Source: Thermoproteota archaeon (GTDB taxonomy: Archaea; Korarchaeota; Korarchaeia; Korarchaeales; Korarchaeaceae). Taken from it: a stretch of DNA of 51,951 nt. A program made the translations under genes and the position numbers. Shown here piece after piece: positions 36,177 to 42,013 of this stretch; the stretch's first letter is position 1; every line of letters starts with the position of its first letter. The notes under the pieces are model-generated. The model saw only the letters and a list, made by a program, of their open reading frames with translations, was not told the origin of the DNA and searched no databases. The stretch is from NCBI GenBank assembly GCA_015522685.1, contig WALU01000005.1, positions 1 through 51,951 of the forward strand, in the 5' to 3' direction.

Positions 36177-36815
36177 ATGAGGTTGCTGGCTGCCTCGGAT
36201 ATACATGGAGAAATAGGAATGTTAAAATCTATGTTAGGAAGAGAAGATACCGATATCTTAGTACTAGCAGGAGATCTCTCTAACAACTCCATGGGTGAGG
36301 TGAGGGGGATACTACAAGTTGCAGGCAGGTATGGGGTGCGGGTGATGTTCATACCAGGTAACATGGACCCTCCAGACTTGCTAAATGTAGAATCTTTGGA
36401 AGGAGCTATCAACCTCCACGGCAGAGTTAGGAATGTCCTTGGATTGAATTTAGGAGGGCTTGGTGGAGGAAGCATATCTCAATTTAATACTCCTATAGAA
36501 TTCAACGAAAGAATCATTTGGAATAAATTAGATAATTTAGCCAATATTGATGTGCTAGTGAGTCATGTTCCTCCATATGGAACTAAGTTAGACGTTGTGA
36601 GGACAAGGATGCATGCAGGTTCCAAATCCCTCCTAAAGTTCCTAAAGGAGAAGCAGCCCATTCTATGTGTATGTGGGCATATACATGAATCATATGGAGT
36701 AGATTTCATTGGAAGAACTGTTTCAATCAATCCTGGCCCCCTAATGTGGGGCAGATATTCTGTTATAGAGCTACATGATGGAAACATAAAGCCCATGCTC
36801 AAGAAGCTTAGCTGA
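36177..36815 (+). CDS. Metallophosphoesterase, YfcE/MJ0936-like
   Basis: A 212-residue calcineurin-like phosphoesterase. Metal-binding motifs run in order: ASDIHGE (D-x-H), LAGDLS (GD), IPGNMD (GN-D, variant of GNHD), LVSHVPPYG, and CVCGHIHES (GH-x-H). Relatives such as YfcE and MJ0936 hydrolyse phosphodiesters in vitro; the physiological substrate is not known. It leads a run of genes on the same strand that includes an ECF transporter component and pantothenate kinase, so a cofactor-related phosphatase role is possible (inference). TATA-like ATATATAAG is about 45 bases before the ATG. Confidence 0.85.
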   Translation: MRLLAASDIHGEIGMLKSMLGREDTDILVLAGDLSNNSMGEVRGILQVAGRYGVRVMFIPGNMDPPDLLNVESLEGAINLHGRVRNVLGLNLGGLGGGSISQFNTPIEFNERIIWNKLDNLANIDVLVSHVPPYGTKLDVVRTRMHAGSKSLLKFLKEKQPILCVCGHIHESYGVDFIGRTVSINPGPLMWGRYSVIELHDGNIKPMLKKLS

Positions 36816-36852
36816 TGTTTTTATTTTGCATTCCCATATCTCCAAGATAAGG

Positions 36853-37389
36853 ATGAATGTGAGGAAGCTTACCCTCTCAGCGATGGGAGGAGCCCTTTAT
36901 GCGATAGTTGGATATATAAGCTGGCTAGGTCTCAATTTCTATGGTGTAAGATTCTGGCCTGCAGTAGTAGTACCTGCAGTTTTCGCATGCCTTTATGGCG
37001 GATGGGTCGGTGGACTATCTGCAGCCATAGGCATATTCATCTCCGATATGGTTACCCATGGAAATGCGCTTCTCAGCCTCACAGTTGGGGTTCCCTCCAA
37101 CTTCCTCGGTTTCTATGTCATAGGAGTTTTAAGCGGCGAAGATAGATATTCAGTCAAGAAGTATATCCTCGCCTCCACATTAGGCCTGATAATCGGGCAT
37201 CTAATAATAGGTTTCGGGCTTCTAGCATGGAGTCAAGTATTTCCTCTTCCATTTCAAAAGGAGATAACTCCCTTATCATTATCAGCTGCCCTTACAATAT
37301 CATTTGTAACTTTCGCTTGGGAGCTACCTTTTGCTCTGGTATTAGTCCCTCCAATAGTCTCTGCAGTTAGAAGATCATCAAGAGGGTGA
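36853..37389 (+). CDS. ECF transporter S component (vitamin-binding membrane subunit)
   Basis: A 178-residue very hydrophobic protein with about six membrane helices. The N-terminal MNVRKLTLSAMGGALYAIVG and the first-loop GVRFWPAVVVPAVFACLYGG, GLSAAIGIFISDMV are typical of energy-coupling-factor S components, which bind a vitamin and pair with a shared ATPase/T module. ATG 36853 was chosen; a TTG at 36826 would add nine residues. Ligand type cannot be read directly, but the next gene is a pantothenate kinase 4 bases away, which suggests pantothenate. No ECF ATPase or T subunit gene is in the window, so it would use a module encoded elsewhere. Confidence 0.82.
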   Translation: MNVRKLTLSAMGGALYAIVGYISWLGLNFYGVRFWPAVVVPAVFACLYGGWVGGLSAAIGIFISDMVTHGNALLSLTVGVPSNFLGFYVIGVLSGEDRYSVKKYILASTLGLIIGHLIIGFGLLAWSQVFPLPFQKEITPLSLSAALTISFVTFAWELPFALVLVPPIVSAVRRSSRG

Positions 37390-37393
37390 GCTC

Positions 37394-38257
37394 GTGTTCA
37401 TAGTAGGCTTAGATATGGGAGGAACTACTACTAAAGGAGTTCTAATTTCTGAATCAGAAATAATTGGAAAGACTATAGTAGTTGCATCAGATCCTCTCGC
37501 CGCAGCATCAGGTGCTATAGGGAAACTTGTTTCTGAGCATGGGATAAGCATTGATGATATAGAAGCTATAGCTCTCACAGGTGGCAGGACTAAGCCTCTC
37601 CCTAGAAGGATACTAGGCCTTCAAGTCAGAGAAGTTGATGAGATAGAAGCTGTGGGGAGAGGAGGGGCTTTCCTTGCAGGAATAAAAAGATGCGTCGTAG
37701 CTAGTGTTGGTACTGGAACCGCAGTGGTGGAAATCAGGATGGATGGTGGAAGATGTGAGGTGAGACATCTTGGAGGCACTGGTGTCGGTGCAGGCACTCT
37801 ACTGGGGCTGGGTAGACTTCTCCTTAGTAGGACTTCAATTGCTTCTCTAATGGATATGGCCAAGAAGGGGGATCCTAGAAATGTAGATCTTACCGTTGGA
37901 GATATAGTTGGCGGGCCTATAGGAAAGCTCGAGCCTAGTGCTACAGCATCAAACTTTGGAAAGGTTGGAGATGATGTGAGACCCGAAGATATAGCTGCAG
38001 GGCTTGTGAATATGATAGGACAAGTTATAGGAACTGTAGCATTTTTTGCAGCTAAATCTGTTAGCCTTGAGAATGAGATAGTATTAGTTGGAGGATTGAT
38101 GGTACATGATCTCATAGTTAAAGCTGCTATGAAGCCATTGAATCTATTTGATGGCCATGCGATTGTTCCAGAAGACCCACAATTCGCTACATCAATAGGC
38201 GCATCCCTTAAGGTTCTGGCTAACTTTACATCACCATTAGGTGAGAGAAACGAATAG
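37394..38257 (+). CDS. coaW: Type II pantothenate kinase
   Basis: Phosphorylates pantothenate, the first step of CoA synthesis from the vitamin. The 287-residue protein has the actin-like fold with all type II (Fumble/CoaW) motifs: GLDMGGTTTKGVL (phosphate 1), VREVDEIEAVGRGG (catalytic Glu region), VASVGTGTAVVEI (phosphate 2), LGGTGVGAGTLLGLGRLL, MAKKGDPRNVDL and ATASNFGKV, and ends VLVGGLMVHD...ATSIGASL. This order matches Staphylococcus CoaW closely. Start GTG 37394 is 4 bases after GGTGA. Most archaea instead use pantoate kinase plus phosphopantothenate synthetase, so a bacterial-type kinase is notable. Confidence 0.85.
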   Translation: MFIVGLDMGGTTTKGVLISESEIIGKTIVVASDPLAAASGAIGKLVSEHGISIDDIEAIALTGGRTKPLPRRILGLQVREVDEIEAVGRGGAFLAGIKRCVVASVGTGTAVVEIRMDGGRCEVRHLGGTGVGAGTLLGLGRLLLSRTSIASLMDMAKKGDPRNVDLTVGDIVGGPIGKLEPSATASNFGKVGDDVRPEDIAAGLVNMIGQVIGTVAFFAAKSVSLENEIVLVGGLMVHDLIVKAAMKPLNLFDGHAIVPEDPQFATSIGASLKVLANFTSPLGERNE

Positions 38258-38993
38258 AGAATATCCAAGGTACCCCTTGGTTGGTGTTGGAGGAATTTTA
38301 ATACAGGATAATAAGATTCTTTTAGTGAAGAGGAAGAATGAACCTGGGAAGGGGCTATGGGCCATACCTGGGGGTCTTGTAGAACCCGGAGAGGCAATAA
38401 AGGATGCCGTGAAGAGAGAAATTAGAGAAGAAACTAACTTAGTTGTAGATGCACTGAGACCTATAAATGCGGATGAAGTTATAGTAAGGGATAAGGAGGA
38501 AAGGATAAAGTATCACTATGTCCTAGTGGATTTTCTGTGCAAAGTCATAGAAGGAAGCCTTAAGCCGGGAGATGATGCTAAAGAAGTTAGATGGATAGAT
38601 ATAAAGAGAGCTAAGGAGCTTAATTTGACTGATTCTACTAGAAAGCTCCTGGACAAGATAATGGAAGGGTTCTTTTTAGTGATAAGGAATAGAGATGTGA
38701 AGAAAGTCCTAATGGGAGTTCCTAGAGATCATGAGCATATGAGAGTTGTTTTTGAATTAATAGATGGCTCTATTATAGTTTTTCATGAAGCCACTATGGA
38801 AAATGTATCTCGAGGGGTAGTGGAGGTTGAGATGCACCCTACAAGAAAAGCGATCTCCTTAGTGGGAATAGAATTAGATGAAAGGGAGAAAGGATATAGC
38901 AGATATCAGCTGATAGAGGAGGATAAGGGGGAAAGCGAGATAGTGGAAGAGCTAACTAACCTGCTGAGGATGGAGAGTGAAGAGAAATCATAA
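38241..38993 (+). CDS. Nudix hydrolase with extra C-terminal domain
   Basis: A 250-residue two-part protein. Residues about 12-140 are a Nudix domain with PLVGVGGILIQDNKILLVKR and the Nudix box GGLVEPGEAIKDAVKREIRE followed by ETN, complete for metal and diphosphate hydrolysis. Residues about 145-250 (NRDVKKVLMGVPRDHEHMR, IIVFHEATMENVSRGVVEVE) form a separate alpha/beta domain that I do not recognise. The N-terminal half resembles ADP-ribose or NAD(P)H-type Nudix enzymes, which would fit the nadM gene downstream. GTG 38241 is the only start before the domain, but it lies within a GGTGAG that overlaps the pantothenate kinase end by 17 bases. Confidence 0.85.
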   Translation: MRETNREYPRYPLVGVGGILIQDNKILLVKRKNEPGKGLWAIPGGLVEPGEAIKDAVKREIREETNLVVDALRPINADEVIVRDKEERIKYHYVLVDFLCKVIEGSLKPGDDAKEVRWIDIKRAKELNLTDSTRKLLDKIMEGFFLVIRNRDVKKVLMGVPRDHEHMRVVFELIDGSIIVFHEATMENVSRGVVEVEMHPTRKAISLVGIELDEREKGYSRYQLIEEDKGESEIVEELTNLLRMESEEKS

Positions 38994-39090: not shown

Positions 39091-39639
39091 ATGAGGAAAA
39101 GAGCTTTGGTAATAGGAAGGTTTCAACCTCTTCACTATGGACACCTTCATGCATTTAGATATTCCTTGGGAAGAGCCGATGAGCTTGTTATTGCCATAGG
39201 TAGCTCTCAATACTGCTGTGTTCCTAGGAATCCTCTCTCTATTGACGAGAGGATGGAAATGCTCGTTAGAGCCCTTAGAAGAGAAGGATTTCCTTTGGGC
39301 GATATAGTAATTTCCTCTGTTCCAGATACAGAGACTCCTGAGGAAGATTGGGGTAAATTAGTTATGGATAGAGTGCCTCGCGTGGATATAGCATTTAGCA
39401 ATGATCCCGAAACCATTAAAGACTTAAGAAATGTTGGCCTCAAGGTAGAGAATATACCTTTCCTCAAGAGAGATATCTACGAAGCTACTAGAATAAGAAA
39501 ACTCATATTAGAGAGGGATTCTGCATGGAGGGAGCTAGTCCCTCTATCCGTATTGGAATTCCTTCTTGAGATAGACATGGAAGAGAGGATAAAAAACATA
39601 GCAGAAAAGTACAGGGAGGAGCTAGCTGCCAGCAAGTAA
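39091..39639 (+). CDS. nadM: Nicotinamide-nucleotide adenylyltransferase
   Basis: Forms NAD from NMN and ATP. The 182-residue protein is the archaeal NadM type: GRFQPLHYGHLHAF with the HxGH nucleotidyltransferase motif, IAIGSSQYC, NPLSIDERMEML, and the C-terminal DIYEATRIRKLIL in place of the usual ISxTxxR. It starts with ATG 39091 after AGGTGG. The 97-base region between the Nudix stop and this ATG is richer in GC than other gaps and can fold (AGAGG with CCTCT; ACC-GAAA-GGT), so a structured leader is possible. It is the last gene of the cofactor run and ends 12 bases before the convergent PIN-ATPase gene. Confidence 0.94.
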   Translation: MRKRALVIGRFQPLHYGHLHAFRYSLGRADELVIAIGSSQYCCVPRNPLSIDERMEMLVRALRREGFPLGDIVISSVPDTETPEEDWGKLVMDRVPRVDIAFSNDPETIKDLRNVGLKVENIPFLKRDIYEATRIRKLILERDSAWRELVPLSVLEFLLEIDMEERIKNIAEKYREELAASK

Positions 39640-41275: not shown

Positions 41276-42013
41276 GTGTTATACGTAAAGTTAGGAGGTT
41301 CTCTCATAACTTATAAAAAAGAAGGCATGTTTTCCATTAAGGAGAACATTTTAAGAAATATTTCAAGAGAATTAAGGTCTTTTCTGAGGGATAGAATATT
41401 CTTAACCCATGGGGCTGGATCTTTCGGACATGTCCCTGTAATTAAGCATAACCTCCAAAATGGCCTTAGAAAGGGATCCAAACTGGGAGCTTCCGAAGTT
41501 ATGGTTAGGGTTAGTGAGCTGAATTCCATCGTATCAAAGATAATGTTAGAAGAAAGCATTCCAGTAGTTCCTTTCTCTGCTAGATCGGTCTTCATGAGGA
41601 GGAGAGGAAAAATTTCGTGTAATCTTCCTTTCATAGAATATCTAATAGATCATGATTTTGTTCCTTTGACTCATGGAGATTTCATACCGGACGAAGAGCT
41701 TGGTACGTACATACTCTCAGCTGATGAGATACCTATATATCTAGCTCCCCTTGGGCTCAAGAAGGTTATATTCCTAACAGATGTCCCCGGGGTCCTAGAT
41801 GAAGAAGGTAATCTCATAAAAGAGCTGAGGAGGAACTTTCTACCCAAGCTTAGGGAAGACGACTTTGATGTCACCGGAGCTATGAGAGGGAAATTATCTC
41901 ATGCCTTTAAGCTGGCGTCTATGGGTATAGAAGTTATAATAGCAGGTTACTTAAATAATGGAGATTTAAGGAGAGCGTTTGAAGGAGGATGGGGGACAAG
42001 AGTCATAATATAA
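41276..42013 (+). CDS. ipk: Isopentenyl phosphate kinase
   Basis: Makes isopentenyl diphosphate from isopentenyl phosphate in the archaeal mevalonate pathway, for ether-lipid synthesis. The 245-residue amino-acid-kinase-fold protein has VKLGGSLITYK, the catalytic HGAGSFGHVPV, PLTHGDFIPD, ILSADEIPIYLA, IFLTDVPGVLDEEG and DVTGAMRGKLSHAFKL. The His in GSFGH is the family's substrate-binding residue that sets it apart from uridylate kinases. GTG 41276 is the start; the overlapping ATG two bases earlier is blocked. It ends 21 bases before the convergent DUF655 gene. Confidence 0.95.
   Translation: MLYVKLGGSLITYKKEGMFSIKENILRNISRELRSFLRDRIFLTHGAGSFGHVPVIKHNLQNGLRKGSKLGASEVMVRVSELNSIVSKIMLEESIPVVPFSARSVFMRRRGKISCNLPFIEYLIDHDFVPLTHGDFIPDEELGTYILSADEIPIYLAPLGLKKVIFLTDVPGVLDEEGNLIKELRRNFLPKLREDDFDVTGAMRGKLSHAFKLASMGIEVIIAGYLNNGDLRRAFEGGWGTRVII

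Follow-up and report, generated by a model that had tools for sequence, protein, structure and literature searches.

CoA is essential, and the locus described here raises the question of which CoA precursor, if any, is imported and phosphorylated by the products of two adjacent korarchaeal genes, an ECF S component and a kinase resembling type II pantothenate kinases (PanK-II). The window, i.e. the whole stretch of 51,951 nucleotides that was analyzed, belongs to a genome (G000) of the phylum Korarchaeota, represented here by 29 genomes, and within it to family f1, represented by 24. Candidatus Methanodesulfokora washburnensis, assigned to Candidatus Korarchaeia by the NCBI taxonomy, belongs to the same family. 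A sequence-only reading of the same DNA had seen in the pair a pantothenate salvage module lying within a wider cofactor locus.

The gene pair, its products and its neighbours

The pair and the genes around it are arranged as follows:

36177..36815, + strand: metallophosphoesterase (PF14582/PF00149)
36853..37389, + strand: ECF S component (ATG start, 178 aa, PF12822 E=2.4e-18)
37394..38257, + strand: type II pantothenate kinase-like enzyme (GTG start, 287 aa, PF03630 E=2.2e-24)
38241..38993, + strand: Nudix hydrolase with a C-terminal extension (PF00293 E=1e-22)
39091..39639, + strand: NadM, archaeal nicotinamide-nucleotide adenylyltransferase (NF002243, 145.6 bits vs a cut-off of 127)

A TTG at position 36826 is also a possible start of the S component; homologues begin at the ATG at 36853. 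Four bases lie between the stop of the S component and the start of the kinase, and open reading frames, Pfam matches and AlphaFold folds all agree with the sequence-only reading as to what these two genes encode. It was also right about the neighbouring phosphoesterase, Nudix and NadM genes, but the wider cofactor locus that it built on them does not hold, as the conserved core of the locus is the S component and the kinase only. The three neighbours are kept beside the pair within the genus or in part of the family only: the metallophosphoesterase is the first gene of a putative operon in the genus, with synteny within the genus only, while the Nudix gene, which overlaps the 3' end of the kinase by 17 bases, is conserved in part of the family. 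The Nudix and NadM genes look like NAD metabolism outside the conserved core, and NadM is probably a bystander to the pair. We considered both as members of a CoA locus and rejected this, since they accompany the pair in part of the family only and the nearest NCBIfam families of the Nudix protein are NMN adenylyltransferase/Nudix fusions. At 41276-42013 of the window, near the locus, lies a gene of the archaeal mevalonate pathway, that for isopentenyl phosphate kinase.

The S component is above the Pfam cut-off of PF12822 (ECF_trnsprt), the general ECF S-component family. The riboflavin-S model PF07155 also matches it, weakly (2.9e-7) and passing its cut-off, and with the NCBIfam riboflavin and folate models it stays below their cut-offs. 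By sequence it has no significant match in PDB, PanT included. Its AlphaFold model (pLDDT 91) has six helices, and the best 27 PDB matches found by Foldseek are all ECF S or M components, PanT among them; none of these 27 points to one ligand. The S-component fold is thus what it shares with PanT (PDB 4rfs, 6zg3) and with PanU of B. subtilis (PMC11487621), whereas it differs from PanT in sequence and in being a candidate importer paired with a kinase in archaea that mostly lack CoaBC. We predict that it imports pantetheine or pantothenate.

In group II ECF systems a lone S component draws its energy from an EcfT/EcfA module whose genes lie at another place in the genome. A search of the genome for such subunits had been suggested along with the pantothenate proposal, and EcfT and EcfA genes are indeed present elsewhere in it. 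EcfT genes are situated at two places, contig 24 and contig 17, and every genome of the phylum carries at least one EcfT. Contig 24 (C24, L125) carries an EcfA-EcfT pair at its edge, and this pair could, by analogy with group II systems, energise the lone S component. Contig 17 (C17, L126) holds a riboflavin-type cassette composed of an S component, its own EcfT and a fused EcfAA', and this second S component fits PF07155 far better (1.3e-31) than the one in the window.

The kinase scores 86.7 bits against the Pfam Fumble model PF03630 (cut-off 28.5), 230 bits against the NCBIfam type II pantothenate kinase model NF009842, just under its 234-bit cut-off, and 107.5 bits against TIGR00555 (cut-off 247.6). 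S. aureus PanK-II is matched in PDB both by sequence (E=1e-16) and, as the best fold match (9.5e-18), by the AlphaFold model (pLDDT 87). An acyl-CoA dehydratase activase (BcrAD/BadF) was rejected because the PanK matches are stronger (230 vs 76.7 bits, 1e-16 vs 7.5e-9). With S. aureus PanK-II (PDB 4nb4, 4m7x) and eukaryotic PANK the kinase shares the fold, the catalytic Glu, the Gly-rich motifs and an alignment over the full length, and it differs from them in its score just below the curated cut-off, in genome context and in the residue at the PANK3 Arg207 position. Glu83 aligns with the catalytic Glu (SaPanK Glu70 / PANK3 Glu138) and is invariant in 121 aligned members of the subfamily. His125 (window 37766-37768), invariant in 121/121 members including the neighbours of CoaBC, occupies the position of human PANK3 Arg207, which hydrogen-bonds pantothenate (PMC8366970). 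As this Arg is missing, we call the enzyme PanK-II-like and not a proven PanK-II; the His in its place may simply reflect variation at the level of the subfamily and not a loss of function. The invariant His125 defines a large kinase subfamily of archaea, Bacteroidales, Spirochaetes and Clostridia. It was rejected as a mark of pantetheine specificity, since kinases adjoining CoaBC carry it too; judged from the alignment, it marks the subfamily and not the substrate. No feature separating pantetheine from pantothenate was found in the residues and structures analyzed.

CoA pathway genes in Korarchaeota

Families of CoA synthesis were searched over 61 genomes with controls, and the 16 genomes of f1 that are at least 90% complete are referred to as near-complete. 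The kinase is present in all 16 of them and in 26/29 Korarchaeota genomes, the three without it being 63-86% complete. CoaD (PPAT) was likewise found in 16/16 near-complete genomes, 22 of the 24 f1 genomes being over the cut-off, and so was the archaeal dephospho-CoA kinase (DPCK, PF04019), with 23/24 in f1 overall. In the window's genome these two genes are located at:

C35:28335-28790: CoaD
C35:108985-109344: DPCK

The window's genome lacks the PPCS domain of CoaB (PF04127), as do 15/16 near-complete f1 genomes and 23/24 genomes of f1 as a whole. This is not a failure of detection, because the same model found the domain in 14/14 control genomes and in f3, f4 and f5, the sister families within Korarchaeota. 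The PPCDC domain of CoaC (PF02441) was not found in f1 except in G022; G006 and G014, the latter among the 16 near-complete genomes, each gave one short match to part of it. Incomplete assembly was rejected as the cause of the CoaBC absence, since G009, a genome of the same genus assembled in one contig, likewise has kinase, CoaD and DPCK without CoaBC, and many near-complete relatives agree with it. Two Korarchaeota genomes that do have CoaBC, G025 and G028, carry the same S-kinase pair.

The searches for PPS and PanB that the sequence-only reading had proposed found neither in the window's genome. PPS (PF02006), present in four archaeal control genomes, is absent from f1 except G022 (1/16 near-complete genomes), and PanB is missing throughout f1 (0/16). 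As PPS is absent, the archaeal PoK/PPS route is incomplete whatever the status of pantoate kinase. The absence of PPS and PanB agrees with an earlier published statement that counts Korarchaeota as one of the exceptions without PoK and PPS, the replacement not being stated there (PMC6650551). G022 is the only member of f1 with CoaBC and PPS, which are situated on one 17-kb contig (C15) of similar GC in a genome of 2.9 Mb with 6% contamination; this contig may be contamination or a late gain. CoaBC and PPS adjoin there a PF02441 frame with two stops.

The gap in the route is exactly CoaBC, which is what a pantetheine kinase activity would bypass. As CoaBC is missing while CoaD and DPCK are kept, phosphorylated pantothenate is a dead end by known enzymes. 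The pairing of kinase and S component still speaks for cofactor salvage, as originally supposed, but pantothenate is less well supported than pantetheine as its object.

Conservation of the pair and phylogeny of the kinase

The S component adjoins the kinase in 24/26 Korarchaeota loci, and the pair was found in 16 loci of other archaea, 10 of them with both genes on the same strand and 6 in a divergent arrangement. These belong to Nitrososphaeria, Brockarchaeota, Geothermarchaeota, Bathyarchaeota and further archaea, and the adjacency persists to approximately 45% kinase identity. Since the arrangement is conserved in relatives, it is not a product of chance. Kinases of the bacterial relatives (Bacteroidales, Spirochaetes, Clostridia) and of Theionarchaea have no S component as a neighbour. 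The view that a bacterial-type pantothenate kinase is rare in archaea needs to be softened, as the enzyme occurs in every near-complete Korarchaeota genome and in several other archaeal lineages. A pantothenate kinase from Picrophilus torridus, reportedly described by Takagi et al. in 2010 (cited in PMC6650551), is also said to be an archaeal enzyme from a lineage without PoK/PPS.

The kinase phylogeny, another of the checks proposed at the outset, was run with FastTree and placed the S-paired kinases together in a single archaeal group with a support of 0.93, separate from the bacterial kinases and from a group that includes CoaBC-adjacent ones. In five archaeal genomes (G027, G202, G220, G288 and G303) a kinase of the subfamily is a direct neighbour of CoaBC or lies no more than about 2 kb from it, and pantothenate kinase activity is therefore probably ancestral in the subfamily.

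Pantetheine bypass and competing readings

We favour, with moderate confidence, the reading that the two genes serve to salvage a CoA precursor by way of a pantetheine bypass. This is the most economical reading because only CoaBC is missing while the kinase, CoaD and DPCK are kept, and pantetheine is a better candidate than pantothenate for both import and phosphorylation. What the analysis shows is the identity of the two genes, their pairing and which pathway families the genomes have or lack; the substrate of transporter and kinase and the cooperation of the S component with an EcfT/EcfA module we infer. In this route the S component, powered by such a module from elsewhere in the genome, would import pantetheine (or pantethine, which would be reduced inside). 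The PanK-II-like kinase would then convert pantetheine to 4'-phosphopantetheine, and CoaD together with the archaeal GTP-dependent dephospho-CoA kinase would finish CoA, PanB, PoK/PPS and CoaBC all being unnecessary in such a bypass. If the substrate is pantetheine, the pair, CoaD and DPCK make up a complete CoA route, built on scavenged pantetheine instead of pantothenate (vitamin B5). This would explain how CoaBC could be lost, and it predicts a specific growth factor for these hard-to-cultivate organisms.

It is known that CoaA of E. coli and B. subtilis phosphorylates pantetheine and that pantethine rescues coaBC mutants (PMC11487621, PMC12570885). The likeness to our case is that a pantothenate kinase uses pantetheine and CoaBC is dispensable with pantethine (PMC12570885, PMC11487621), but in these bacteria the bypass is a side route of CoaBC-bearing cells through a type I kinase (CoaA, PanK-I), whereas f1 lacks CoaBC almost throughout and has a kinase of the type II kind next to an S component. 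The bypass is possible with some PanK types only, type III being excluded (PMC8721197). Mycoplasmas with PanK, PPAT and DPCK and without CoaBC show the same enzyme combination, which has been read as possible pantetheine salvage, but their kinases are of type III, for which use of pantetheine is not known, and they are host-dependent bacteria (PMC8721197). Given that the mechanism of pantethine uptake in bacteria is described as unknown (PMC12570885), the S component offers a concrete candidate for the import of pantetheine, and an ECF S component devoted to this compound would, to our knowledge, be the first importer of its kind. Our literature search, with most subscription papers outside it, found no paper that reports for Korarchaeota either the loss of CoaBC or a salvage of pantetheine by this bypass; the lack of PoK/PPS in the phylum is already published (PMC6650551).

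Pantothenate could still be what the S component imports if the kinase made 4'-phosphopantothenate and an unrecognised, non-homologous enzyme replaced CoaBC. The five genomes with a member of the kinase subfamily adjoining CoaBC fit this, and so do G025 and G028, in which pantothenate would suffice; moreover, steps of archaeal CoA synthesis have often been taken over by non-orthologous enzymes (PoK, PPS, DPCK; PMC6650551). However, two unknown activities, PPCS and PPCDC, would be required in every CoaBC-less lineage, and neither PF04127 nor a full-length PF02441 was found in f1 apart from G022; we regard this explanation as unlikely. It is more improbable still that the kinase acts on some other substrate and that neither gene has to do with CoA, with CoA precursors entering further down, for example by import of 4'-phosphopantetheine. 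The NCBIfam score just under the curated PanK cut-off could be taken in this sense, as could the replacement of the pantothenate-binding Arg by His125 throughout the aligned members, but the same His is invariant in the CoaBC-adjacent members as well. The invariance of the catalytic Glu83, the best matches by fold and sequence, which are to PanK-II, and the fact that no near-complete f1 genome lacks the kinase, CoaD or DPCK also argue against it.

An S component unrelated to the kinase, for instance a riboflavin importer in incidental adjacency, would account for the weak match to PF07155 and for fold matches that do not discriminate the ligand. Against this stand an adjacency that survives to the kinase identity given above and is found in several groups of archaea and also with the two genes arranged divergently, and the separate S gene of the same genome, which with its own EcfT/EcfAA' cassette is a far better fit to riboflavin. 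This explanation thus appears very improbable.

Returning to the pantetheine bypass, we propose more tentatively, as a possibility to be taken seriously, that it is a widespread archaeal pathway in which lineages that lost CoaBC make CoA only from scavenged pantetheine, through a dedicated ECF S importer and a His-type PanK-II acting as pantetheine kinase. The bypass itself is further supported by data from outside Korarchaeota. There PF04127 is missing in 18/20 kinase-bearing genomes, which were accessed by way of named loci (Nitrososphaeria, Brockarchaeota, Geothermarchaeota, Bathyarchaeota, Theionarchaea and others), completeness and CoaD status not being part of this count. In a survey of 394 archaeal genomes the kinase was present in 23/37 CoaD-bearing archaea without CoaBC vs 4/197 with CoaBC, and in 3/16 vs 3/196 when f1 was excluded (Fisher p=0.006, kinship not corrected). 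Outside f1, 13 CoaD-bearing genomes of the survey, some of them incomplete, have neither CoaBC nor the kinase, therefore other solutions exist.

Several single genomes and loci deserve mention. CoaD is present while CoaBC and the kinase are absent in the survey genomes G098, G108, G210, G260 and G361, which may use another CoA route or precursor import. Two loci of Theionarchaea (L164 and L167, in genomes of 2.8-3.0 Mb) have the kinase with no adjoining S component, and CoaBC was not found in these genomes. At two other loci, L155 and L156, from Brockarchaeota and another archaeon, the kinase is flanked by two different S-component genes, one on each side.
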